Origin: Gracilaria domingensis
Taxonomy: Eukaryota; Rhodophyta; Florideophyceae; Gracilariales; Gracilariaceae
DNA length: 64,000 nt
Direction of reading: 5' to 3'
NCBI GenBank assembly: GCA_022539475.1
Contig: VCMS01000043.1
Location: forward strand, 124,001 to 188,000
A model generated the notes under the pieces. The model worked only from the letters and a program-made list of their open reading frames with translations. It did not search any database and was not told the DNA's origin. The translations under genes and the position numbers were made by a program. Position 1 is the first letter of the stretch. Each line of letters begins with the position of its first letter. This document shows, one piece after another, positions 2,920-53,915 of the stretch.

Positions 2920-4173
2920 ATGAACAATCTGGACTTGTTATTTCAAGCGTCGCTGCTCGTGGAGCAAGAAAAGCTGCACGAAGTGGACAAGTTCTCTGTG
3001 GTGAGCAAAGACCTGAAGACATCCATTGGGCGAAGAATGGCCGCTTGGACTATCGTTCGGGAGCTACTTTATTCAGCCGAATGCACTATTAATTCCACCA
3101 GGGAGGTACCAAAGGGGCGGATTGACGAAAACCAACTCAAGAGGTATCTCGGAGAATTTTCAGACATGGTTTCGGTTACCCTACAGCTGTATACTCAGGA
3201 AGTGGACTTCCTTCACGCTGTGAAACGCGAAATAGTTGATTTGTTCGCTGCCAAGAATGAGCTACTTTCTACTTATGGTAAGCAGAATTTCGCGGGGAGA
3301 CAGGAGGGCAAGGTGGAGGAAGATGACAAAAACAATAATGCAGTGAAGGGTGAGTGTAAGCAGGAGCCATGCGCCCGGCTTGAGCCGCATGAGCTAACTG
3401 ATTTTGGTGCATGCGATGCAAAGAGCACTGCTTGTAAGGAAGATGCGAAACCTCAAAACTCGAAGGACGAAAAAACACTGGCGCAGCCATTAAAGGGAGG
3501 AAATGGCAGGCTGACTATTAGAATTCCATTGAACGGCGCGAGCAGAACGGAAAAGGAGGGTAACGAGAGAGTGCAAACGGTGGGCGAGGAAGCAGGTAAG
3601 GGTAAACTGGAGGGAAAACGCAGTGTTGGCCGCAATGATGCAGGCACTGACAGCGTTGTCCAAAAGACAAAGGAGACGGAAGGTACTAGAGCACAAAAGG
3701 AGCTAGAGGGGCGCAGGTGGAACGGAAAGAACTTCAGCGGTGCCAAAAAAGTGGAGAGCGAAGTATGTGGAGCCACCACTCGATCGCTGAGGAGGAATCG
3801 TAAAAGACGCACTCTCGAGACGGATCACGAGGTTGTTGCTACGAAGCGTCGAAGGATCAATTGGACGGTGGAAGAAAACAAGGTGTTTATTGGTCTTGTG
3901 AGCAAATTTCAGCCGCTGGGAGAAGCGGAGATGAGACGACGTGTGGCGCGACATTTCTCGCCCCGTCGCACGCACGAACAATGCGCAAATCACCTGCGCA
4001 TCCTGAGAGCCAAGGGGGTGATACAGAGCGGCGACGAGCAGGGCGGCGGCGCCGGCGACGGGGGCGGCGGCGGCGGCGTTGGCGGCGGCGGCGGCGGCGG
4101 CGGAGGCGGGGGCGGAGGCCACGGGAGCCGGGACACGTCCGTGACGCTGTCGAAGGGAAGCCACAGCTCGTAG
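2920..4173 (+). CDS. SANT/Myb-like domain protein with glycine-rich tail
   Basis: A 417-residue protein, counted from the first ATG (MNNLDLLF...); the frame stays open upstream without an ATG. Residues 1-120 are predicted mostly helical. Residues 120-300 are highly charged, Lys/Glu/Gly-rich and probably disordered. A SANT/Myb-like module lies at about 308-365, with the sequence INWTVEENKVF, a central helix and HEQCANHLRIL as third helix. The tail (about 373-405) is almost pure glycine encoded by GGC repeats. SANT domains bind DNA or histone tails, so a nuclear chromatin or transcription role is likely. The exact family is not recognised. The GGC run marks the start of the GC-rich segment that covers the next two genes. 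Confidence 0.7.
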   Translation: MNNLDLLFQASLLVEQEKLHEVDKFSVVSKDLKTSIGRRMAAWTIVRELLYSAECTINSTREVPKGRIDENQLKRYLGEFSDMVSVTLQLYTQEVDFLHAVKREIVDLFAAKNELLSTYGKQNFAGRQEGKVEEDDKNNNAVKGECKQEPCARLEPHELTDFGACDAKSTACKEDAKPQNSKDEKTLAQPLKGGNGRLTIRIPLNGASRTEKEGNERVQTVGEEAGKGKLEGKRSVGRNDAGTDSVVQKTKETEGTRAQKELEGRRWNGKNFSGAKKVESEVCGATTRSLRRNRKRRTLETDHEVVATKRRRINWTVEENKVFIGLVSKFQPLGEAEMRRRVARHFSPRRTHEQCANHLRILRAKGVIQSGDEQGGGAGDGGGGGGVGGGGGGGGGGGGGHGSRDTSVTLSKGSHSS

Positions 4174-4620
4174 AGGTTAGAGTTTAGATAGATGGACGAG
4201 TCGGGGAAGACAGCACGTGAACAGCTGCGCCGAAAAGACGCGCGCGGTGAAGGTAAAAGCGGCGAAAAAAGCAACGCCAAACAGCAAACTGTAAAGGGCG
4301 GCGGCGCCATTTCGCGCGCGGCCGCCGCGTCAAAAATAGGGCGCCGAATGCACTCGCTGCTCGCCGCGCGCGTACGCCTATCTACCCGTATTCGCTTTGC
4401 GTGCGCCCGTCGCTGCCGCGCGCGCTCCTCAGCCCGCGCCCGCGCCCGCGCCCGCGCCCAGCCCCCCCCCCCCCGCCCCCCATTTCATATACTCCCCTCT
4501 GCGCCCACCACATATCCCCCCCCCACCCCCCCCCCCTCCCCAACCCCCCTACCCCCTCTCCCCCTCCCCCCCTTGATCGTTCCCTCTCCTGCTGCGCGCG
4601 CGCGCGCCCCATGAGCGGTG
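4174..4620. other. GC-rich intergenic segment with long C tracts
   Basis: This stretch is extremely GC-rich, with CG-dinucleotide runs and, at about 4460-4580, long uninterrupted cytosine tracts (G tracts on the minus strand, a potential G-quadruplex/i-motif). It should contain the promoter and leader of the PAP2 gene. An ATG at 4611 lies ten bases upstream of the chosen start and is out of frame with it. Confidence 0.6.
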
Positions 4621-5754
4621 ATGGACGCTTCCAAGCAACAGCGGCCGTCGTCCCCCCGCGCGCCGTCCGAGTGCGACGACGACGCCGCGCGCGCGTCCCC
4701 GCCCGTCCGCACGCGCTTCATTCTGCCGCCTCGCACGCGCTTTCAACTGCCGTTTCCGTCCTTGTTGGAGCGAGCGTTCGCCGCGTTTGACGATCGCGTG
4801 GTCGCGCTCTGTCAGCGCCGCACCGACGGGCTTGTACATGTATTCAGTATGGGGCTGACCTTCTTCACCTCCATCGAGGTGTCTCTCGTGGCGCCGCCCA
4901 CTCTCTACGCGCTGGGGTACGACATCGCGGCCGCGCTGTGCTCGTCCGTGCTGCTGGTGCTGGGCATCGTGAGCCAGGTGCCCAAGAAGTTCATCTACCG
5001 GCCGCGGCCGTGGATGGTCGGGCGCGCGCTGCCCATCCGCCAGGACCGCACGTCGTCGTTCCCGTCGCGCGCCGTCGTGTGCGCGGTGGTGTTCTCGTGG
5101 CTCATCGCGCAGTCGCTGCAGCTGGAGGGGCTGCTGCCGCAGCCGCTGAGCCGCGTCAAGCTGTGGCTGGCCATCCTGGGCGCGGCGAGCCTCACGGCGT
5201 TCGCGCGCATCAACGTGGGCGCGCATTACCCGTCCGACACCATTCTGGGCTTCGTGCTGGGCGTGCTGGTCATCTGGTGCGGCAGCCGGCTGGAGCGGCA
5301 GGTGTGGCAGCGCGCGTGCCCGCTGGCGGGCGCGGCGGCGGACGCGGCGGCGGCGGACGCGCTGCCGGCGTGGGACGACGTGCGGTGGGGCGTGGCGCGG
5401 CGGAAAATGGCGCTGATGACGGCGGCGGCGTACGGCATGGCGCTGGTGTCGATGCAGGGCTTCTGGGTCAAGTGCAGCTATGTGTACGGGCTGCTGCTGT
5501 CGTGCGCCACGTTCCGCGCGGCGGTGCTGTGCGGCGGCGCGCGCGCGGCGGCGGCGGCGGCGCGCGCGGCGGCGGCGGGCGGCGCGCGCGGCGCGTCGGC
5601 GCGGCAGCACGTGGGCGCGGTGGCGCCGTTCGCGGCGCTGCTGCTGTTCGGCATGGCCACGCGCGCGCGCGGCGGCGCGTTCCGCGTGCTGTCCTTCTCG
5701 CTCATCTACGGCGGCACGCTGGGCGCGCTGCTGCTGTGGCGGCTTCAACATTAA
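4621..5754 (+). CDS. PAP2-family lipid phosphatase-like membrane protein, catalytic motif 2 altered
   Basis: A 377-residue multi-pass membrane protein starting MDASKQQRPSS. Phosphatase motif 1 is visible as KKFIYRPRP (122-130). Motif 3 is RINVGAHYPSD, with Arg196, nucleophile His202 and Asp206 all present. Motif 2 should read PSGHxxR, but here residues 147-151 are FPSRA: the Gly-His and two following residues appear to be missing, so the leaving-group-protonating histidine is absent. Relatives (PLPP6-like type 2 phosphatases) dephosphorylate isoprenoid or lipid phosphates at the ER. Without that histidine the protein may be inactive or carry a recent small deletion. The C-terminal third is very rich in Ala, Gly and Arg, reflecting extreme GC content. 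An out-of-frame ATG at 4611 suggests leaky scanning. Confidence 0.75.
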   Translation: MDASKQQRPSSPRAPSECDDDAARASPPVRTRFILPPRTRFQLPFPSLLERAFAAFDDRVVALCQRRTDGLVHVFSMGLTFFTSIEVSLVAPPTLYALGYDIAAALCSSVLLVLGIVSQVPKKFIYRPRPWMVGRALPIRQDRTSSFPSRAVVCAVVFSWLIAQSLQLEGLLPQPLSRVKLWLAILGAASLTAFARINVGAHYPSDTILGFVLGVLVIWCGSRLERQVWQRACPLAGAAADAAAADALPAWDDVRWGVARRKMALMTAAAYGMALVSMQGFWVKCSYVYGLLLSCATFRAAVLCGGARAAAAAARAAAAGGARGASARQHVGAVAPFAALLLFGMATRARGGAFRVLSFSLIYGGTLGALLLWRLQH

Positions 5755-5997
5755 AAACGCGCCCCGCGCGCGGACCAGCGCCGCCCCGATTTTGCGCCAT
5801 AACGGCGCGCCCCCGGCGCGCGCCCCGATCTCGCCCGATCCGCGCCGCGTAAGGCGCCTCCGTCCGGCCGCCGCCCCCCCCCCCCCGCGCACGTTATGGC
5901 ACGCGCGCCCGCCGCACATAAGCGTCATCTCCCCGCCGCCGCGCTCTGCGCCGTCCTCCCCCCCGCCGTCCCCCCCCGCCGCCCGCCGCCCGCCGCC

Positions 5998-7881
5998 ATG
6001 ACCGCCCCCACCTGGGTCTCCGCCGTCGACGACAAGCGCCCCATCATCGGCCTGCCCGAGGGCGTCCCCCACCAGACCTTCCCCGCCGCCATCGCCCAGG
6101 CCGTCCGCGAGCGCGGCCACGTGCAGCAGTACTTTGCCGCAGATGGCTCCGCCTACACCCTCGCCGAGTTCTACGACATGGCCCGCAAAGTCGCCAAGGC
6201 CATGATCCATCTGGGACTGCAGCCGTTTGACGGCGTCAGCATTCTGGGCTTCAACTCGCTGCAGTGGTTTGCCGCCGACGTCGGCGCCACGCTGGCCGGC
6301 TGCTTGCCTGCCGGAATCTACACCACCAACAAGCCTGCAATCGTGGCCTACATCATCAAGCACAGCCGCAGCCGCGTCATTTTGGTCGATGATGAAACCG
6401 CGTTGGAAAAGGTGTTGTCTGTTGTCGATCAGTGCCCAGAGCTCAACGCTGTCGTCGTATGGGGCAGTGTCGACCAGTCAAAGTACTCGAAACATGCAGA
6501 TCTCGTGCACACCTTTGACCAGTTCCTCGCCTTGTCGGAACACGTGCCGGACTCGGACCTCGATGCTAGGATCGATGCGCAGAGCCCGGAGAACGTTTGC
6601 AAGCTCATTTATACTAGTGGCACCACGGGGCCGCCAAAGGCCGTCATGATCTCACACGATAACATTGTCTTTACCGCCATCGTCACGGGAAGACTTGTCA
6701 ACGCAGGCGTCGATGACCACCTCGTCTCGTTCTTACCGTGCTCACACATTGCTGCCAACATGGTTGACATTGCTGGCTCCATTTTAAGGGGCATAAAGAT
6801 TACATTTGGCGAACCTGATGCTCTGAAAGGCTCTTTGGTAAAGACTTTGAAGAAGGTACGCCCTACATTGTTTCTGGCCGTTCCGCGCGTGTTCGAGAAG
6901 ATTCAGGAGAAGTTGTTGCAGATTGGTGCTGAAAACGGCCCGATCAAGCGAGCCATTTCGTCATGGGCCAAGTCGATTGGAACCGCCGCTTCGCACGCTC
7001 GCGATGGCGGCGATGAGCTTATGCCGTGGGGATACAAGTTGGCCAAACTACTCGTGTTCAACAACGTAGCAAAGGCCCTTGGCCTCGATAGTTGCAGGCT
7101 CATCTTTAACGCCGCTGCTCCGTTGCAAAAGGCTACCGAGTCGTATTTCAAAAGCCTGGATATCCGTATCCACGACATTTACGGAATGAGTGAAGGAACG
7201 GGCCCGATAACGGCCAATGTTAACGGGTACAAGGCTGGCACTTCTGGTAAGATGATACCTGGCGGTGAGGTAAAGCTCATCAATAAGGACGAGACTGGAG
7301 AGGGTGAGCTTTGTTTCCGCGGACGCAATGTGTTTGTGGGCTACCTAGACAATCCAGAAGAGACCTCGAAAACAATTGATGAGGATGGCTTTATTCATTC
7401 TGGTGATTTAGGGCGCGTTGATGAGGATGGTTATGTGTCTATAACGGGTCGAGTGAAGGAACTCATTGTGACTGCTGGCGGCGAAAATGTTGCGCCGGCA
7501 CTGACTGAGGGTTCACTCGGGGAAGAATTGAATGCCATTTCTCGTGTGTTTGTTGTTGGTGATAAGAAGAAATTCATCTCTTGTCTGCTCATTCCGTACA
7601 TTGATGAGGAGGGCAACTTGATCGGGCCCGCTTCAACGGTGAATCCTAACGTGAAGACAGCGGTGGACGCAGTGAATGACCCTGTTTGGTTGAAATACAT
7701 CAACGAAGGTGTTGAACGGGCCAATACGCACGCCATCAGTAATGCTGCAAAAGTACGAAAGTTTAGGTTGCTTTCGAAAGACTTTACCGTGGAGGGTGGA
7801 GAGCTCACCCCCACAATGAAGGTGAAGAGAAAGATCGTTGTCCAAAAGTATGACGCCGTGATTGACGAAATGTACTCTTAG
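5998..7881 (+). CDS. Long-chain acyl-CoA synthetase, bubblegum (ACSBG) type
   Basis: A 627-residue ANL-superfamily enzyme that activates fatty acids to acyl-CoA with ATP, placed in the long-chain/bubblegum group by overall sequence. The AMP-binding P-loop YTSGTTGPPK is at 205-214, the adenylate-binding segment DIYGMSEGTGP is near 390, GDLGRVDEDG lies near 467-478, and the hinge/A10-type region GRVKELIVTAGGENVAP follows at about 484-500. The start chosen is the ATG at 5998 in GCCGCCATGA; an in-frame upstream ATG at 5896 would add 34 low-complexity Arg/Pro/Ala residues. Codon use changes sharply inside the gene: roughly the first 110 codons are almost entirely G/C-ending, while the rest resemble the surrounding genes. 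It is convergent with the next gene, 137 bp away. Confidence 0.93.
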   Translation: MTAPTWVSAVDDKRPIIGLPEGVPHQTFPAAIAQAVRERGHVQQYFAADGSAYTLAEFYDMARKVAKAMIHLGLQPFDGVSILGFNSLQWFAADVGATLAGCLPAGIYTTNKPAIVAYIIKHSRSRVILVDDETALEKVLSVVDQCPELNAVVVWGSVDQSKYSKHADLVHTFDQFLALSEHVPDSDLDARIDAQSPENVCKLIYTSGTTGPPKAVMISHDNIVFTAIVTGRLVNAGVDDHLVSFLPCSHIAANMVDIAGSILRGIKITFGEPDALKGSLVKTLKKVRPTLFLAVPRVFEKIQEKLLQIGAENGPIKRAISSWAKSIGTAASHARDGGDELMPWGYKLAKLLVFNNVAKALGLDSCRLIFNAAAPLQKATESYFKSLDIRIHDIYGMSEGTGPITANVNGYKAGTSGKMIPGGEVKLINKDETGEGELCFRGRNVFVGYLDNPEETSKTIDEDGFIHSGDLGRVDEDGYVSITGRVKELIVTAGGENVAPALTEGSLGEELNAISRVFVVGDKKKFISCLLIPYIDEEGNLIGPASTVNPNVKTAVDAVNDPVWLKYINEGVERANTHAISNAAKVRKFRLLSKDFTVEGGELTPTMKVKRKIVVQKYDAVIDEMYS

Positions 7882-44460: not shown

Positions 44461-45775
44461 ATGCTCGGCTCTGTACCGCTCAACTCTATCGCGTTTTCCT
44501 CGGCTCTAAAGCTTACATTTCGTCCACTTCGTTCCATTTGTTCTGAGATCTTTGGAAATTATTCTCCTCAGCGTAAGCTTTCGCAGTCCGAGACTAGTTC
44601 ACTTACAATGGCCAGCACTTATGGTCATCGTGCTCACAACAACGAGACTCCGTTCGTTTCGAACCGCACAATCTATCCACGTATAGAGCCATACTGCAAG
44701 GATTACCTACAAGTTTCGGAGACTCACAAAGTGTATTACGAGGTCTCAGGAAATCAGAACGGGTTACCAATCTGCTTCGTGCACGGCGGACCTGGGGGTG
44801 GCACCGTTCCGGCACACCGCAGTTTTTTTGATCCAAGAGGTAAGCAAGACATTATTTGATGCGCTCTAGATACCGGTTTTTTTCAGGCGTTTCTTAAGTA
44901 ATGAGAACCCGATGAACTGCAATGAATCTGATTTTGATACTCTATGAATTGCAGTGTACAAAATTGTCCTATTTGATCAAAGAGGATGTGGCAAGTCACA
45001 ACCGTTCGCCTGTCTTGAAGAAAACACGACTTGGGATCTTGTTGAAGACATGGAACGTGTTCGAGAGGCGGCTGGAATTGAAAGTTGGATATTATTTGGC
45101 GGAAGCTGGGGATCAACTTTATCGATTGCGTATGCCCAAGAGCATCCTCATCGTGTTCTAGGCATGATTCTTCGAGGTATCTTTTTGTCGCGCAAACAGG
45201 AATTAGACTGGTTGTATGGGCCAAACGGTGCAGCGATGTTGTTTCCAGAAGCATATGACGCCTTTTTGTCTGGTCTTCCAGAAGTAATGAGGGACTCGGA
45301 AGACGTCATCGACACGTTCTATACCATTCTGAGCCAAGAGGAAAACAATGAGGAACGGCGCATTGCGGCAAACGCGTGGAGCAACTGGGAACGCAGCCTT
45401 TCTAGTTTTCAGCGAACGGATGCTCCGGAGGACATTGATAATGACTACTGCGATGATGAAAATCTTGCTTTTGCCCGTATTGAGGCTCACTACTTTGTCA
45501 ACAAAGGCTTTCTAACGGAGGACGATTACTTGGTGAAAGAATCGCAGATGCAGAAGATCAAATGCATCAAGACGTGCATCATACAGGGGCGATGGGATAC
45601 TGTCTGTCCCCGGAAGAGCGCGTATGATCTTGCGGGCATGTTTGACCCTCGATGCGTTGAAGTGATTCTCATCGATAACGCTGGACACTCTACGTTTGAG
45701 CCGGGCATTGAAGCGGCATTGTTAGATGCTACGGACGCTTTCGGGAAGGAATTTGGGTCACTTGCTAACAGGTGA
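44461..45775 (+). CDS. Proline iminopeptidase (alpha/beta hydrolase, family S33), two exons
   Basis: Exons 44461-44839 and 44955-45775 give 399 residues; the 115 nt intron (GTAAGC...TTGCAG) is needed to join FFDPR to VYKIVLFDQRGCGKS. The oxyanion-hole motif HGGPGGG lies in exon 1. The nucleophile elbow GGSWGS has Ser177, followed by Asp341 (GRWDTV) and His371 (AGHSTF), completing the catalytic triad. The enzyme removes N-terminal proline from peptides. Residues 1-49 precede a second in-frame ATG (MASTYGHRAHNNE) and look like an organelle presequence (few acids, Ser/Arg/Leu-rich), so alternative starts could give organellar and cytosolic forms. Confidence 0.93.
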
Positions 45776-46623: not shown

Positions 46624-49600
46624 ATGGCATGGGGTAACCGAGGGGATTCGGAAACCTTGGAAGGTGCTTCAGGACGAACATGGACATTGCGATTTGAGAG
46701 ACGCCTGGCTCCGCGTGAGACGGCTGATGTTGTGAACCCGGCCTCGACGGTCTGGCTTGTGCGCGACGAGAAATCAGCTCGACTTTATGCTGCTAAACGT
46801 CAGAACCTCGCTTCTCTGACAGAAGTCGATGCGCTAGTCGATGAGGCCGCTGCATGGCGTGGCGCCTGCCTTGCAGACCCTGAGAAGCATATCATAGAGC
46901 TCGAAGACGTTTTCGTTTTGAGAGAAGCTCCATTTGCCGTCATTTTTCTGGCGGAGTTCTGTTCGCGTGGTCTTTTGCCGAAGCGTCCGCCACTTTCAGA
47001 AGCCGTCTTGTTGACGATCGCTGCCGATCTTGCTAAGGCAGCTGCTACGATTCCTTCACCTCACGCACACATTGCCTATGATTCTCTTCTTGTCGATCAG
47101 GACGGCAGAATCCGTGTTGCAGGATTTGGTGCCCATCGGTCGGCAATCTTACGCGATAATCCAGGTCTCACTCCCAACGATGATGCGTTTGATATTGGAT
47201 TGTTGCTCTACGAGCTGATCTTCGGAATTCAACCACCGGAGAATCTTGATATCCCCGAGTCCTCTCCGTATTCCCCGCAACTGACCGAACTGATATCTTT
47301 CGCGTTCTCCCATCCTCACCCCACAGAGTTGTTCAACCGAGCTGTGGCTGCAGGCGGGGAACCTCTAGGCCCTGTGGTAAACATAAACATAAACAAGGAA
47401 AGCGCAGCGCAACCCGCAGTCCCAGAATTCGTCGAGAAAGCAACAGAACGCAACGTTGAGAACCTCGTCACGGGTGTTGACATAGCTTCGTCATTCTCCG
47501 CTCTGCTTCAAGACCTTAATGCAGACCCGCAGGCGATGTCTCAAGGCATTTTTAAAACTTTGTTCAAGAAACCAGTAAGTACAGATCCGCTTTGCGCGAT
47601 GCGAGTGTTGACGATGTTGCACAATTTGATTCTAGACGGCCCTGATGGTGTCATTGTCGGGGTTCGGAAGAACGATAAGTTCATGGAATGGGTGGAGTCG
47701 TCATGGACGAGAGAAGCAATCGAGGCATCTCATAACAGCGAGAAACACCCAGCTACGTTCTCCTTTGCCGGCGGTGAGCTAGCATTCTATGCCGCGTTTT
47801 TGAGAAGAAAAGCAAAGTTTCATTTGCTTGCAGCAGGCGGATTCACAGGACGGTGGGCTAGAACTGGCGCTCTGAGTCCAGAAGGGCGAGATGTTCTTAC
47901 TACAAGACGTCGGAAGGTCATTTCCGGGATGGCAGATGTTATCGAAATGGCTTCGGAGCTCGGTTGCCGCTTTGCATCTGCGAGGGATAATGAAGCCCCA
48001 GTTAAGCAGACTGCACTTGGAGCCCTTGTTAGCGACTGTTGCTTAGCGTTTAAGGCTGCAGAGGAATTAGCGTACGAGGTCGAAACGATTCATGCCGCGC
48101 AGAAATTAGTAGAAAGCATATCTAGACTTTACAATGCTTCCAGGGGTCTTGTTTTTGCTGTGGAACACGTTCCGTCGGCAGGGGGAGAAGAATGGGTACA
48201 GCATTTTGCATCTGAGACACCTCCCGACCTCATCAACGAAGCTAGTATGAAGGAAAGCCGGGTGCAAGAGCTACACGATGAAGTCAGGAAAGAACAAGAA
48301 AGAAAGGAAAAGGAGAAGATGCAGAGGAAGGAAGAGAAGAGGAAGAGAAGAGAGGAGAAGGAGCAAAAGAGAGCCTTAAAAAAGAAAGAACAACAAGAGA
48401 AAGAAATATCTGCAGAAGATGGTGCACTAGTTGTCCATGGTGCGGATGAAGCTTCAAAGGCGGTTACAACATTGTTTGGAGATCTTCTTTCCCTCGACAA
48501 CGACAATCCCGAAAACGAGAACCACGCCGCCAATGATGATGAAGTCCCCTCTGGGGTTTCAAACGCCCAAGCACTTGCTTCTGCGTTTGGGGTTCCAGAG
48601 GAGGCAGTTTCAACGCAATATGGTCCTCCCCCATCAGATGATGATCGCGATGATTATGACGATGACGGGGCGTATAACGACTACCAGGCTCGACAAAGTC
48701 AGAAACAACATGTAGTTGGTCCAAGGCAGGGTTCTATGACGGCAGCATGGGCTGCCCGTTCAGGCTTTGTAAGCCAGGCCTTGGTTGTCAGTGAACGGGT
48801 CAATAGTACCAATAAGACCCATCCAGTGTTTTGCCAATGCGGTATTTGTCAGAGAGAGGAACAACAAGCTGCAGCCCACGAGGCGCAAAACACAGGACAA
48901 GCGCCTAAGCTTCGCTCGGATCCAGGTTCAATTTCAGACGGCCTTCAACCTGGAACGGAGCACGTACCACGGTCATACGCTTCTGGAGCAAACCAGCAGT
49001 CAAAACCACAAACTGTACCTGAGGTTTTTACAGAAAAGCCATCGTCATACTACTACGATGATGCTGACTCTCTTGATGAAGGGGATGGTCTACAATATGG
49101 TATGCCGAACAAAGTTGAAAACACGAGGAAAGCAAATAAGGACTATTATGAAGACGGCTATGACTCATATGAAAGTGTCACGTATAGTGTGGATGATAAC
49201 CCAAAGGCGGAAGGAGCAGAATTTCGTTCGAATCCTCCTCCTCAAAATCCCAGGGCCCCACTCGCGAGCCAAGCTTCACATCTGGAATCTATGCTCCCCT
49301 TTGAAATTGACAAGAAGAGAGTTTTGAACCTAAAGAGATTGCGGCTGGGGGACAAAATCTCTCACACGACAAATGTTCTGGTATACAAAGGTGAATACAA
49401 TCGAGAATCTGTGGCAATCAAGAAGCTCTCTAAAGCCGGCCTGCAATCGGAGGAGGCGAGGCAGGATTTTTCAAATGAAGTCAGAATCATGCGGTATGAA
49501 CCACTCGCGGGTAATGAAATGTGTCGTTGCAGCCCTGACGGACTCAAATTTTATTTTCATAACAGAGTACATGAAGAGAGGAACCTTGTTTGATGTTTTG

Positions 49601-50104
49601 CACAAGCAAAGAATCAAGCTTACTTGGGCGCTCGTCCGTAAAATTTGCTTGCAGATCGCGGAAGGAATGCATCACGTTCATGAGGCTGGCTTCATCCATC
49701 AGGATTTGAAATCTCTCAACATATTTGTTGACGGCAGTTTCAACGTCAAAGTTGGAGACTTTGGTTTAGCCCGTCACAAAGCGGACAGCATTGGTCGGGG
49801 TGTGTCTGGAACATATCAATACATGGCCCCTGAAGTAGTTCGCGGTGAGCCGCATTCGGAAAAGTCTGATGTATACTCATACGGAATACTTCTGTGTGAA
49901 ATGGTATCTGGCGTACCGCCATTTCATGGTATTGAAGCCAGACAAGTTGCGGAACGAATTGTTGAGGAAGACATACGACCACCGATTCCTATGAATTGCC
50001 AACGCGCATATGTTAACTTGATCCAAATGTGCTGGGGCACAGTGCCTTCCACACGTCCTTCTTTTTCTGATGTGATTGGACTCATTAATTCTACGACGAA
50101 GTAG
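46624..50104 (+). CDS. Pseudokinase-ANTH-coiled-coil-TKL kinase fusion, with a frame change
   Basis: About 1,160 residues if the two frames are one gene. Residues 20-230 resemble an AAK1/GAK (NAK) kinase fold: STVWLVRD and the ATP lysine in YAAKR are kept, but HRD is replaced by HAHIAYD and DFG by GFG, so it is probably a pseudokinase. Residues 275-470 resemble an ANTH/AP180 clathrin-adaptor fold (AMRVLTMLHNLILDG; FLRRKAKFHLL). Residues 542-598 are a Lys/Glu coiled coil. A long acidic, Tyr-rich linker follows. A TKL-type kinase domain starts near 908: VAIKKL, FSNEVRIM, then in another frame MNHSRV, HQDLKSLN (HRD as HQD), DFGLAR, APEVV and SDVYSYGILL. The frames switch at 49492-49496 with no room for an intron. 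It is probably an endocytic or signalling kinase; the role is inferred. Confidence 0.75.
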
Positions 50105-50886: not shown

Positions 50887-52353
50887 TTATTTCACACCAC
50901 TGCAACGCTTTTCATACGCCTTCCATCCGGCAAGACGATACGCCTTCGCCGCTTTCAATCTGTCGTCAGCTTGGTAAACACCGCGTCCAACGATGATTAC
51001 ATCAGAACATTTTTCGGTAATGACAAGTTCTGGCGTCAGGTACTGTTGTCCAAGTCCATCAACCCCTGGGACTAGCTTCACCCCTGGAGTCATGTACACA
51101 AAACTATCATCCGCTACTTTTCCCATGCTGATGAAGCCGAACACAAAACGTTTGGCCTCTTGCGCCATCTCCACAGTTTTGTCTCGGTAACCTGGCAAGG
51201 CAGAAGCCAAGTTTCCCTTGCTGCTCATTTCCGCCAGTAGAAGTAAACCCATGGATGCTTCTCTATGTTCGCGAACGGATTCAAGGGCTTTTTCAAGCCC
51301 TGAGATGATCCCAGGACCGGGCACCGAATGCGCATTGATAACGTCAGCCCAATTGCAAATTGTATGGACACCACCAACTGCTTGATGATGCACAGTGTTA
51401 CCAATGTCAGCGAACTTTCTGTCCTCAAACAGCATGAAGTTTAAACGCTTCGCGATTTCTTTCAGAGCCGTACCCGTATCACGATCCCAGTCTTCAACAA
51501 TGTCAGCATGGGTTTTCAGGAGACAGATTTCTGGACCTACTGCTTCTGCCAGTTCAAAGAGTTCAGCCTTCGTTGTTACGTCTGCAGAGACTGCAAGATT
51601 CGTCTTCTTTGCAACCATGAGCTCCAGCAAACGACGACCAACAGGGTTCTCCATCTTCGCAAGTTTCTCCTCATACGAAAAACCGGAATTTAGTGCAGTG
51701 GAACTAGGGGTAGGCTTCTGGGAAACCTGGTTTTCTTGGATAAACTTCAAGACCATGTCTTTCACATCTGGTTCAATCCGCTTAGATTCCAAAAGGACAT
51801 CTAAAACGGTAGTTAAAGTAAAAGCGGAATGCAAGTTAAGTCCATTTGATTTCAGATTCTCGCGAGCGCCCTGTTGTCGGTCGAGGAGGACTACGACATC
51901 TTTCACGAGCAAGCCCTCCTTGACAAGAGGGTCTACAGTCTCCTGCACACTTAATCCGCTCGTAACTAAGTCCTCAACGATGAGACATTTTTGATCTTTG
52001 TGGAACTCCCCTTCAATAATTTTCTTAGTGCCGTAACTCTTGATTTCCTTTCGACGCATTACCATCGGTTTGGAAGAAGAAAGACTCATAGCAGTAGCAA
52101 ATGGGAGCGCTGTGTAAGGCACACCACAAACGATATCATACTCGACGCTTGAGATGGTATGTAGGAGCTCATCGGCTATCTGGGATAACAAATCTGGATG
52201 AGAAACTGAAACTCGCAAGTCAACGTAGATGGGAGACTTTATCCCAGACTTGAGGGTGAATTCCCCGAACTTGAAGGCATCTACTTCATGAAGTTTAAGA
52301 ATTATGTTCTTCTGCCGGAGGTTCGCATCGGTTTTAGATTCTTGCACAGTCAT
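50887..52353 (-). CDS. UMPS: UMP synthase (orotate phosphoribosyltransferase fused to OMP decarboxylase)
   Basis: A 488-residue bifunctional enzyme for the last two steps of de novo UMP synthesis, in the OPRT-first order seen in animals and plants. The OPRT domain (about 15-210) has [16 protein letters not shown] and the PRPP loop [11 protein letters not shown] (123-133). The decarboxylase domain (about 225-480) has the catalytic charge network: Lys280 in LLKTH, then Asp311, Lys313 and Asp316 in [12 protein letters not shown]. The phosphate-binding end is MTPGVKL and VGRGVY. The order argues against a stramenopile or kinetoplastid source, where the fusion is reversed. The start is the first ATG (MTVQESK). 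Both active sites look intact. Confidence 0.96.
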
Positions 52354-53915
52354 CTGAGCGTTCAATTCGACAGCTTTACTGACTTAATTGTTGCTTTCTA
52401 CTCCAAGAACCGCTCTGAATCTTTCCAAAACAACCGGGAAGATGGAACTTCAACTTCGCATTCAAATGTAGGCTCCGGATACAAGACCTGGTGTTGTGGG
52501 ATCAGAGGATCCCGCCGCCGACCCAGTCGGATCAAGATCAGCTTTACAGCATTCTGTAATGCTATGTATTTCATGATGCGCGTTTTACTAAAAACTTCAT
52601 AGAACCTGTAACCGAAATTGCATTGTTCGAAAGTACCACACACTCTTTCTCGACCTCACCTCCAGGCTCTTGCGAGTCTGAAGGAGAGAGGTACCTGAAG
52701 AAAAAGATTGGAAGTCTAATTCAGAATTATTTATATATATATATATATATGTTTATGTTGACGGGAAGCAAGAAGTATTTTCTATATTTTAAATATAAAG
52801 CTTTCTTCTAATCTGAGTTATTCAATACGCTGTTTGAAGAACTGTTGGCTTATATATTTGCTATCACCCTATATCAAGAATACATCATTATCAAGCCATT
52901 ATTTTGTTACAATTGTTGGCGAACGATGATAGCAAATATAACTGGATAAAAAGTAATGTGCTGTTTCCAAAGTTGTTTGTAGCTCCAAGAAAAAGATGTG
53001 AGCTCGTACAATGTTAACGATGATGAAAAATACTGCAAGAAGAGCGATTTTGTAAGTGGAAGAGATTCTGTTACATTCGGAATAGTAACTCTATACGTGG
53101 AAGAGGAGCTACTCCAAAACTTGATATAGAACATGAGCTGCATTGCATGTCATATTAGGGTCTAAATCCCCCAATAATCCAGTATTATATTTAGTAACAT
53201 AATCTGCAAGGGCATGTTTCTTTAATCCTTGGCATAGATTATCCTTCAAATATTTTCTTACCAGAATTATGGGACTCTGAGCGGTTCAAAAATTGGGATT
53301 ATTGAGTTATAGATCTGTTATAGATCTGTTACAGATCCTGACTGCCAAGGGTAGGCTTTTTCTAAATTTTATCAATTGTGTGGAAAAACAATTGTTTCTT
53401 CCCCCTGGTTTCTTCCCCACCCCACACGCAGTCAAGTCAATTCGGCTTTCATTATATATTTTTATCATGTAGAACATATTTTGTAGAACAGTTTTTGATT
53501 TTTTCATTTTTTGAAATGTTTAGTGATTTATTTGCGATCTTGGCCCAGCATTTCATGTGTTCTTGCCCGCGGAAGGATGCGCTCGCCTCTCGACGTTGCT
53601 GTTGTCCCTTGCATTTCAAGTCCATCCCTGAACCACCACCAGCCCTCGTGACCCAGTAGATACCGTCCGTGGCCTGAACTATCACGTTTCAACGGTCCGG
53701 AGAGCCCGTTTGTAAGAGGGGACATTTGCTATGAGAACGACGTGAGGTGCAACTTGCGAACACCCGCCCCTGCTCCCCGACTTCAGAGGGTTTACGCTAC
53801 GCCGCTACAATTTCGCACTTTTGGCTGTCACTGAACTTCCTAGAAATACGTATTTCTTGGTTTGAGCCTGTTGGCAGAAGACGTCCGGGCTGAAGGTGGG
53901 CGCTTTGTTCTTACA
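52354..53915. other. AT-rich divergent promoter region
   Basis: A 1.56 kb stretch between the leftward UMPS gene and the rightward SAC3-family gene. From about 52700 to 53560 it is markedly AT-rich, including a TA microsatellite at 52731-52750. No gene is supported. Confidence 0.5.
52731..52750. repeat. TA dinucleotide microsatellite
   Basis: About ten consecutive TA units in the AT-rich intergenic region. Confidence 0.9.

Follow-up and report, generated by a model that had tools for sequence, protein, structure and literature searches.

A predicted pseudokinase, ANTH and TKL kinase fusion, present in two copies, in the red alga Gracilaria domingensis

Introduction

The locus at 46624-50104 (+) of the window raises the question of whether a kinase-like domain, an ANTH-related domain, and a TKL kinase are joined in one polypeptide and, if so, what such a protein could do. 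The window is the whole stretch of 64,000 nucleotides analysed here (G000:C43:124001-188000), taken from the 77.9 Mb, 680-contig assembly of the red alga Gracilaria domingensis. Such a protein would combine a signalling kinase, an NAK pseudokinase, and a clathrin-adaptor fold within a single polypeptide, and would do so in a group of organisms in which endocytosis has, to our knowledge, been little studied.

Domain Order and the Paralogous Copy

The gene is arranged, from its start, as a pseudokinase, an ANTH-related domain, a charged helix, an acidic Tyr-rich linker, and a TKL kinase, and is read from two overlapping ORFs in different frames, one of 989 aa running from the ATG at 46624 to 49593 and the other of 243 aa at 49373-50104. 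Against the Pfam cut-offs (23.1 bits for PK_Tyr_Ser-Thr, 31.7 for Pkinase, and 21.5 for ANTH), only the downstream piece of the second kinase passes in the window gene, with 163 bits to PK_Tyr_Ser-Thr.

A paralogue on another contig (G000:C4, locus L007:2141-5704) repeats the same domain order in a single ORF of 1187 aa, with Pfam matches, in order, to Pkinase (40.2 bits for the N-terminal fragment), to ANTH (28.8 bits for the fragment and 25.1 for the whole protein), and to PK_Tyr_Ser-Thr (265.9 bits). The two proteins are 31% identical from the start codon through the ANTH domain, and searches of the genome with the window domains reached C4 both with the N-terminal kinase (E 1.9e-10) and with the ANTH region, aa 266-568 (E 1.5e-22). 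Moreover, when the genome was searched for ANTH, contig C22, with an ordinary ANTH protein (115.9 bits), and C4 (27.9 bits) were the two matches, and a search with the C4 ANTH domain returned C4 and the window. Since each of these ANTH-related searches returns C4 or the window, and since the paralogue shows the order in its Pfam matches, the fused order is present twice in the genome. Taken alone, the N-terminal domains of the window find no sufficient support in Pfam (the kinase is sub-threshold and ANTH gives no match), and it is through C4 that they gain it. The original prediction that a pseudokinase, an ANTH relationship, and a TKL kinase coexist in one polypeptide is thus borne out by a paralogue that repeats the order unbroken.

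As far as can be judged from sequence, the window gene and C4 are the two paralogues that represent a family of fused proteins in this alga, and the fusion is real and duplicated, with modules that are all known. Its parts are familiar and their combination looks new; no paper on a protein of this architecture was among the matches listed in literature searches of open-licence PMC texts, a limited test. A further trace of the family lies on contig C162 (L053, ~4670-4982, minus strand), where a decayed fragment of the C4 N-terminal kinase, about 50% identical, is interrupted by stops. Among viruses, bacteria, and archaea, 53 pattern matches for homologues in viral_contigs and 89 in genome_contigs yielded no confirmed homologue, a result that says nothing about other algae.

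The N-Terminal Kinase-Like Domain

The first domain (46666..47358 (+), about aa 15-245) scores 11.5 bits to PK_Tyr_Ser-Thr in the window alone, below the cut-off, and its recognition as a kinase fold comes from the 31% identical paralogue domain, which passes Pkinase, and from profile searches of the PDB. The beta-3 Lys and the Glu at the C-helix position are kept in both copies (aa 58 and aa 74 in the window), HRD is replaced by HAH in the window (aa 147) and by HAN in C4, DFG has become GFG in both (aa 167 in the window), and no APE motif was seen in either N-terminal kinase. A retained ATP lysine and the loss of HRD and DFG had both been predicted, and both are confirmed. With these catalytic motifs absent, the domain could be a pseudokinase relative of the NAK family at most.

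The affinity to NAK kinases is less uniform. A whole-domain profile built from the two sequences placed BIKE first in the PDB (39.5 bits) and PAK4 immediately after (39.2 bits), with AAK1 at 34.3 bits among the best 30 of 234 matches, and a profile of the C-lobe only retrieved nine PDB sequences at E<=10, all of them NAK (three BIKE and six AAK1; best E 0.003). The C4 domain alone had PAK first and no NAK among the best 60 of 404 matches, and the window domain alone had nothing better than E 0.35. In addition, the GAK-like NAK encoded by the genome itself ranked 13th (whole domain) or 5th (C-lobe) among 39 kinase ORFs; these derive from 44 loci that were the best matches of own-genome searches rather than all kinases of the genome, once ORFs without a kinase-profile match, duplicates, and the two fusion genes themselves had been removed. 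The NAK-like character originally proposed is therefore favoured by the NAK-only result of the C-lobe profile and opposed by the near-tie with PAK4, the first place of PAK for C4, and the modest rank of the alga's own NAK. These comparisons suggest a fair affinity to NAK kinases, and the assignment is not decisive. The fusion resembles AAK1, BIKE, and GAK in having an N-terminal kinase-like domain with a NAK-like C-lobe and a putative clathrin connection, and differs from them in that the catalytic residues are lost and an ANTH domain and a second kinase come after.

The ANTH-Related Domain

The second domain (47419..48231 (+), about aa 266-536) owes its ANTH homology to a chain that leads from the window to C4 and from C4 to Pfam ANTH, as the window protein itself gave no match to Pfam ANTH at E<=10. 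A direct profile-profile comparison with hhalign was weak (E 0.02, probability 2.4), and AlphaFold2, run on single window sequences of two domains, returned poor models (mean pLDDT 36.8 and 51.0). The low-confidence model of the ANTH region is all-helical and, when submitted to Foldseek, had CALM ANTH among its weak matches, at ranks 3, 5, 29, and 50 (best 50 of 631), with none of the 631 matches at E<=0.001. The ANTH-like region of the original prediction thus stands by way of the paralogue, which passes Pfam and to which the window is homologous, and obtains little from the direct tests on the window.

ANTH domains bind phosphoinositides through a motif of the form KATx6PKxKH. The ordinary, CALM-like ANTH protein on C22 carries KATNRESAAPKGKH, which fits this motif, and a scan found the motif in neither the window nor the C4 ANTH domain. 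In the window, a lone KAT occurs at aa 272, the basic residues after it being missing, and in C4 the Pfam ANTH match begins only at position 49 or 50 of the profile, which is probably past the part where CALM has the motif. Hence, the membrane binding through phosphoinositides that had been foreseen for this domain receives no support, the motif being absent from both fused ANTH domains and present in C22. Like AP180/CALM proteins, the fusion has a flexible, clathrin-box-containing linker downstream of an ANTH-related domain; however, it has no phosphoinositide motif and is flanked by kinase folds on both sides.

Charged Helix, Linker, and Clathrin-Box Motifs

At least 85% of the residues in the segment at 48259..48420 (+), aa 546-599, are E, K, R, Q, D, or A. 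Hydrophobic residues occupy only one to four of the 15-16 heptad positions, whichever register is chosen, and so the segment is probably a single charged alpha helix and not a coiled coil; of the charged coiled coil once proposed, the charge is borne out and the coil probably is not. The linker that follows (48541..49308 (+)) agrees in composition with the acidic, Tyr-rich description given beforehand. Such a linker is absent from C4, whose own linker is mostly basic, with an RS-rich stretch.

A clathrin-box motif, LLSLD, lies at aa 621-625 of the window protein (48484..48498 (+)), where one was found against 0.06 expected in shuffles of the linker (aa 550-900) and 0.68 in shuffles of the whole protein. 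In C4, the corresponding motif is LLNLD, which begins at aa 575 on the margin of the ANTH domain, with 0.04 expected over aa 575-920, a range whose bounds were chosen by us and which begins at the motif itself, and 0.74 over the whole protein. The ANTH protein of C22 has LLGID at 663 (0.25 expected). From these counts, the clathrin box of the window appears suggestive, and that of C4 could be due to chance. The motifs DP[FW], NPF, and PWxxW do not occur in either fusion.

The Second Kinase and Its Frame Change

The C-terminal kinase is split between the two ORFs. Its start, from beta-1 to the C-helix (49330..49494 (+)), belongs to the 989-aa ORF and covers positions 3-56 of the PK_Tyr_Ser-Thr profile, to which this ORF as a whole scores 18.7 bits, below the cut-off; the segment contains the VAIK lysine codon at 49420 and has lost the glycine loop. 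The frame changes at 49492..49498, between the C-helix and strand beta-4, and the remainder continues in the second frame to the stop (49496..50104 (+)), 40% identical to the second kinase of the paralogue, with HQD at 49697, DFG at 49757, and APE at 49826. The C-helix Glu is also present, and C4 has HRD, DFG, and AVE. Both the PK_Tyr_Ser-Thr scores and the catalytic motifs place the domain among TKL kinases. The glycine loop reads GSGGFG in C4 and SHTTNV in the window (aligned by eye), so that C4 has a glycine loop and a continuous frame and the window copy has neither. The usable active site that had been predicted is matched by the presence of VAIK, HQD, DFG, and APE, whereas its usability is doubtful because the glycine loop is missing and the frame is interrupted.

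Among 11 given loci, the piece after the break matched C4 best (181 bits; next 128), which favours the pairing of the two copies. In the reverse search, with the C4 kinase, the window came only 5th of 135 own-genome matches, which speaks against it, although the window match covers only residues 57-260 because of the frame break. In a tree, the window kinase groups with nine TKL kinases of this genome against four others (100/99), with C4 as its nearest row and a sister pairing that lacks strong support. Thus, the C-terminal domain of the fusion belongs with the TKL kinases of this genome and differs from them in being joined to endocytic modules and, in the window copy, in lacking the glycine loop.

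An intron within 49300-49600 had been implied. In total, 162 GT/GC-AG candidates of at least 21 nt between 49300 and 49760 that would join the two frames were scored on a TKL profile of nine own-genome kinases. The best of them, 22 nt long (207.5 bits), is also the sole candidate under which the C-helix and the beta-5 sequence both survive; the best candidate of at least 50 nt removes 49511-49565 (199.7 bits), and no candidate of at least 40 nt retains both elements. Scored apart, the two kinase pieces give 24.8 and 188.1 bits. Very short introns are possible in principle, but an intron is an unlikely explanation, and since only one 22-nt candidate fits, an assembly error or damage is likelier. 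Within its second kinase, the window copy is either damaged or misread.

How this break arose can be weighed from its surroundings. Two ORFs in two frames could mean a chimeric assembly or two adjacent genes read as one, a reading that is very improbable and largely refuted by the paralogue, with its same order in one frame on a different contig. An assembly or sequencing error, with the window encoding a full-length protein like C4, stands about an even chance: both flanking frames fit the kinase profile up to the break, but there is no homopolymer run at 49492-49498 and the glycine loop has been lost independently. A decaying duplicate, in which C4 works and the window has lost its second kinase by a real frame change and encodes at most a truncated protein of 989 aa, falls somewhat short of an even chance. 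It would account for a frame change without a plausible intron and for a glycine loop lost in the window and kept in C4, and the fragment on C162 indicates that members of this family do decay. Nevertheless, no stop interrupts the frame for some 200 codons after the break, and this stretch retains HQD, DFG, APE, and its identity to the paralogue, so any break must be recent.

Clathrin and Adaptor Genes in the Genome

The genome also holds the usual components as separate genes, namely a GAK-like NAK, a CALM-like ANTH protein, and clathrin heavy chain. The ordinary NAK is a GAK/AAK1-like kinase on C3 (L066), so called because its 12 best PDB matches are all GAK, AAK1, or BIKE; its tail contains possible clathrin or adaptor motifs, noticed by eye. 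Clathrin heavy chain is represented by two long ORFs (1773 aa and 1729 aa) on contigs C37 and C32. Stretches that resemble the heavy chain but are interrupted by stops or frame breaks also occur on C56, C294, C428, and C211 and are possible pseudogene copies or haplotypes.

A mu-homology search gave only three matches (L067, L068, and L069, on C21, C25, and C26). One is AP-1 mu (543 bits against 325 for AP-2), another is AP-3 mu (255 bits against 126 for AP-2), and the third resembles delta-COP; neither AP-2 mu nor AP-4 mu was seen among these three in this assembly. An alpha-adaptin appendage was not found in a six-frame search, of a kind that can miss split genes, run without a positive control. 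From these searches, AP-2 may be missing from this alga. A paucity of subunits of TSET, another endocytic complex, has been described in red algae in the sections available of one report (PMC12167817).

Proposed Role of the Fusion

With the domain order found in two copies, the motif losses, and the clathrin-box motif of the window as starting points, the fusion is best read as a putative scaffold at clathrin coats, the likeliest role although a proposal that we regard as evenly poised. Its pseudokinase, related to NAK kinases, and its ANTH-derived domain would have given up their ancestral catalytic and lipid-binding jobs, respectively, and would serve as protein-binding modules; the clathrin box in the flexible linker would tether the fusion to clathrin, and the TKL kinase at the C-terminus would be delivered to the coat as an effector. 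In the window copy, this kinase would be weakened or lost (glycine loop gone and frame broken), through assembly error or real decay.

A parallel exists in Trypanosoma brucei, which has no AP-2 and in which the NAK relative AAK1L1, a putative pseudokinase whose motifs read DFN and HRN, reportedly interacts with clathrin and, when lost, alters cargo uptake (sections available of PMC10952953; PMC5399782). AAK1L1 is thus likewise a NAK relative without the HRD and DFG aspartates and tied to clathrin endocytosis; in contrast, no ANTH or TKL part is mentioned in the sections available, and 'ANTH' occurs 0 times in the main text (PMC10952953). A clathrin-associated kinase, presumably AAK1L1, is described with an N-terminal kinase domain and a disordered C-terminus in the sections available (PMC5399782). 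Similarly, two processes that involve SEL-5/AAK1 in C. elegans need no kinase activity, according to the portion available (PMC11333045).

The NAK and ANTH folds might instead have been reused as generic binding modules in another TKL pathway, outside the clathrin system. Such a role would fit the loss of the lipid motif and the catalytic residues, as well as the basic, RS-rich linker of C4, so unlike the acidic linker of the window, but the clathrin box in the window linker speaks against it, as does the role in clathrin traffic of those ANTH and NAK proteins whose function is known (sections available of PMC4780864; PMC4450294). On balance, this role outside the clathrin system seems rather unlikely.

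The AP-2 mu subunit is the classic NAK substrate. If AP-2 has been lost, as it appears, the NAK pseudokinase, ANTH domain, and TKL kinase of the scaffold proposed above might have been fused into a new, AP-2-independent coat regulator, a speculative extension that we consider improbable. If true, TKL signalling would control clathrin uptake within a single molecule, and the alga would join the trypanosomes as a second case, of independent origin, in which a NAK kinase has become a scaffold after the disappearance of AP-2. In combination with the apparent lack of AP-2 mu, the fusion would make it possible to test how cells lacking AP-2 regulate clathrin uptake and whether the change of NAK kinases into non-catalytic coat scaffolds is a recurrent one.

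Other Genes in the Window and the Assembly

For comparison with the 22-nt intron candidate, a neighbouring gene contains, as noticed by eye, an apparent ordinary intron of ~115 nt (GTAAGC...TTGCAG, 44840-44954). A UMP synthase-like ORF, with a phosphoribosyltransferase followed by an OMP decarboxylase, lies at 50887-52365 on the minus strand of the window. At 4001-6000, the GC fraction rises to 0.73, whereas the remaining 2-kb bins of the window range from 0.42 to 0.54, and several long frames overlap there. Elsewhere in the assembly, contig C680 carries rbcL, with rbcS-like and cbbX-like ORFs beside it and a thioredoxin-like ORF on its other side (the last three by eye). The best PDB match of this rbcL is 8bdb (1070 bits), which, like the next matches, we take to be a red-type RuBisCO, and the gene order around it is presumably that of red-lineage plastids.
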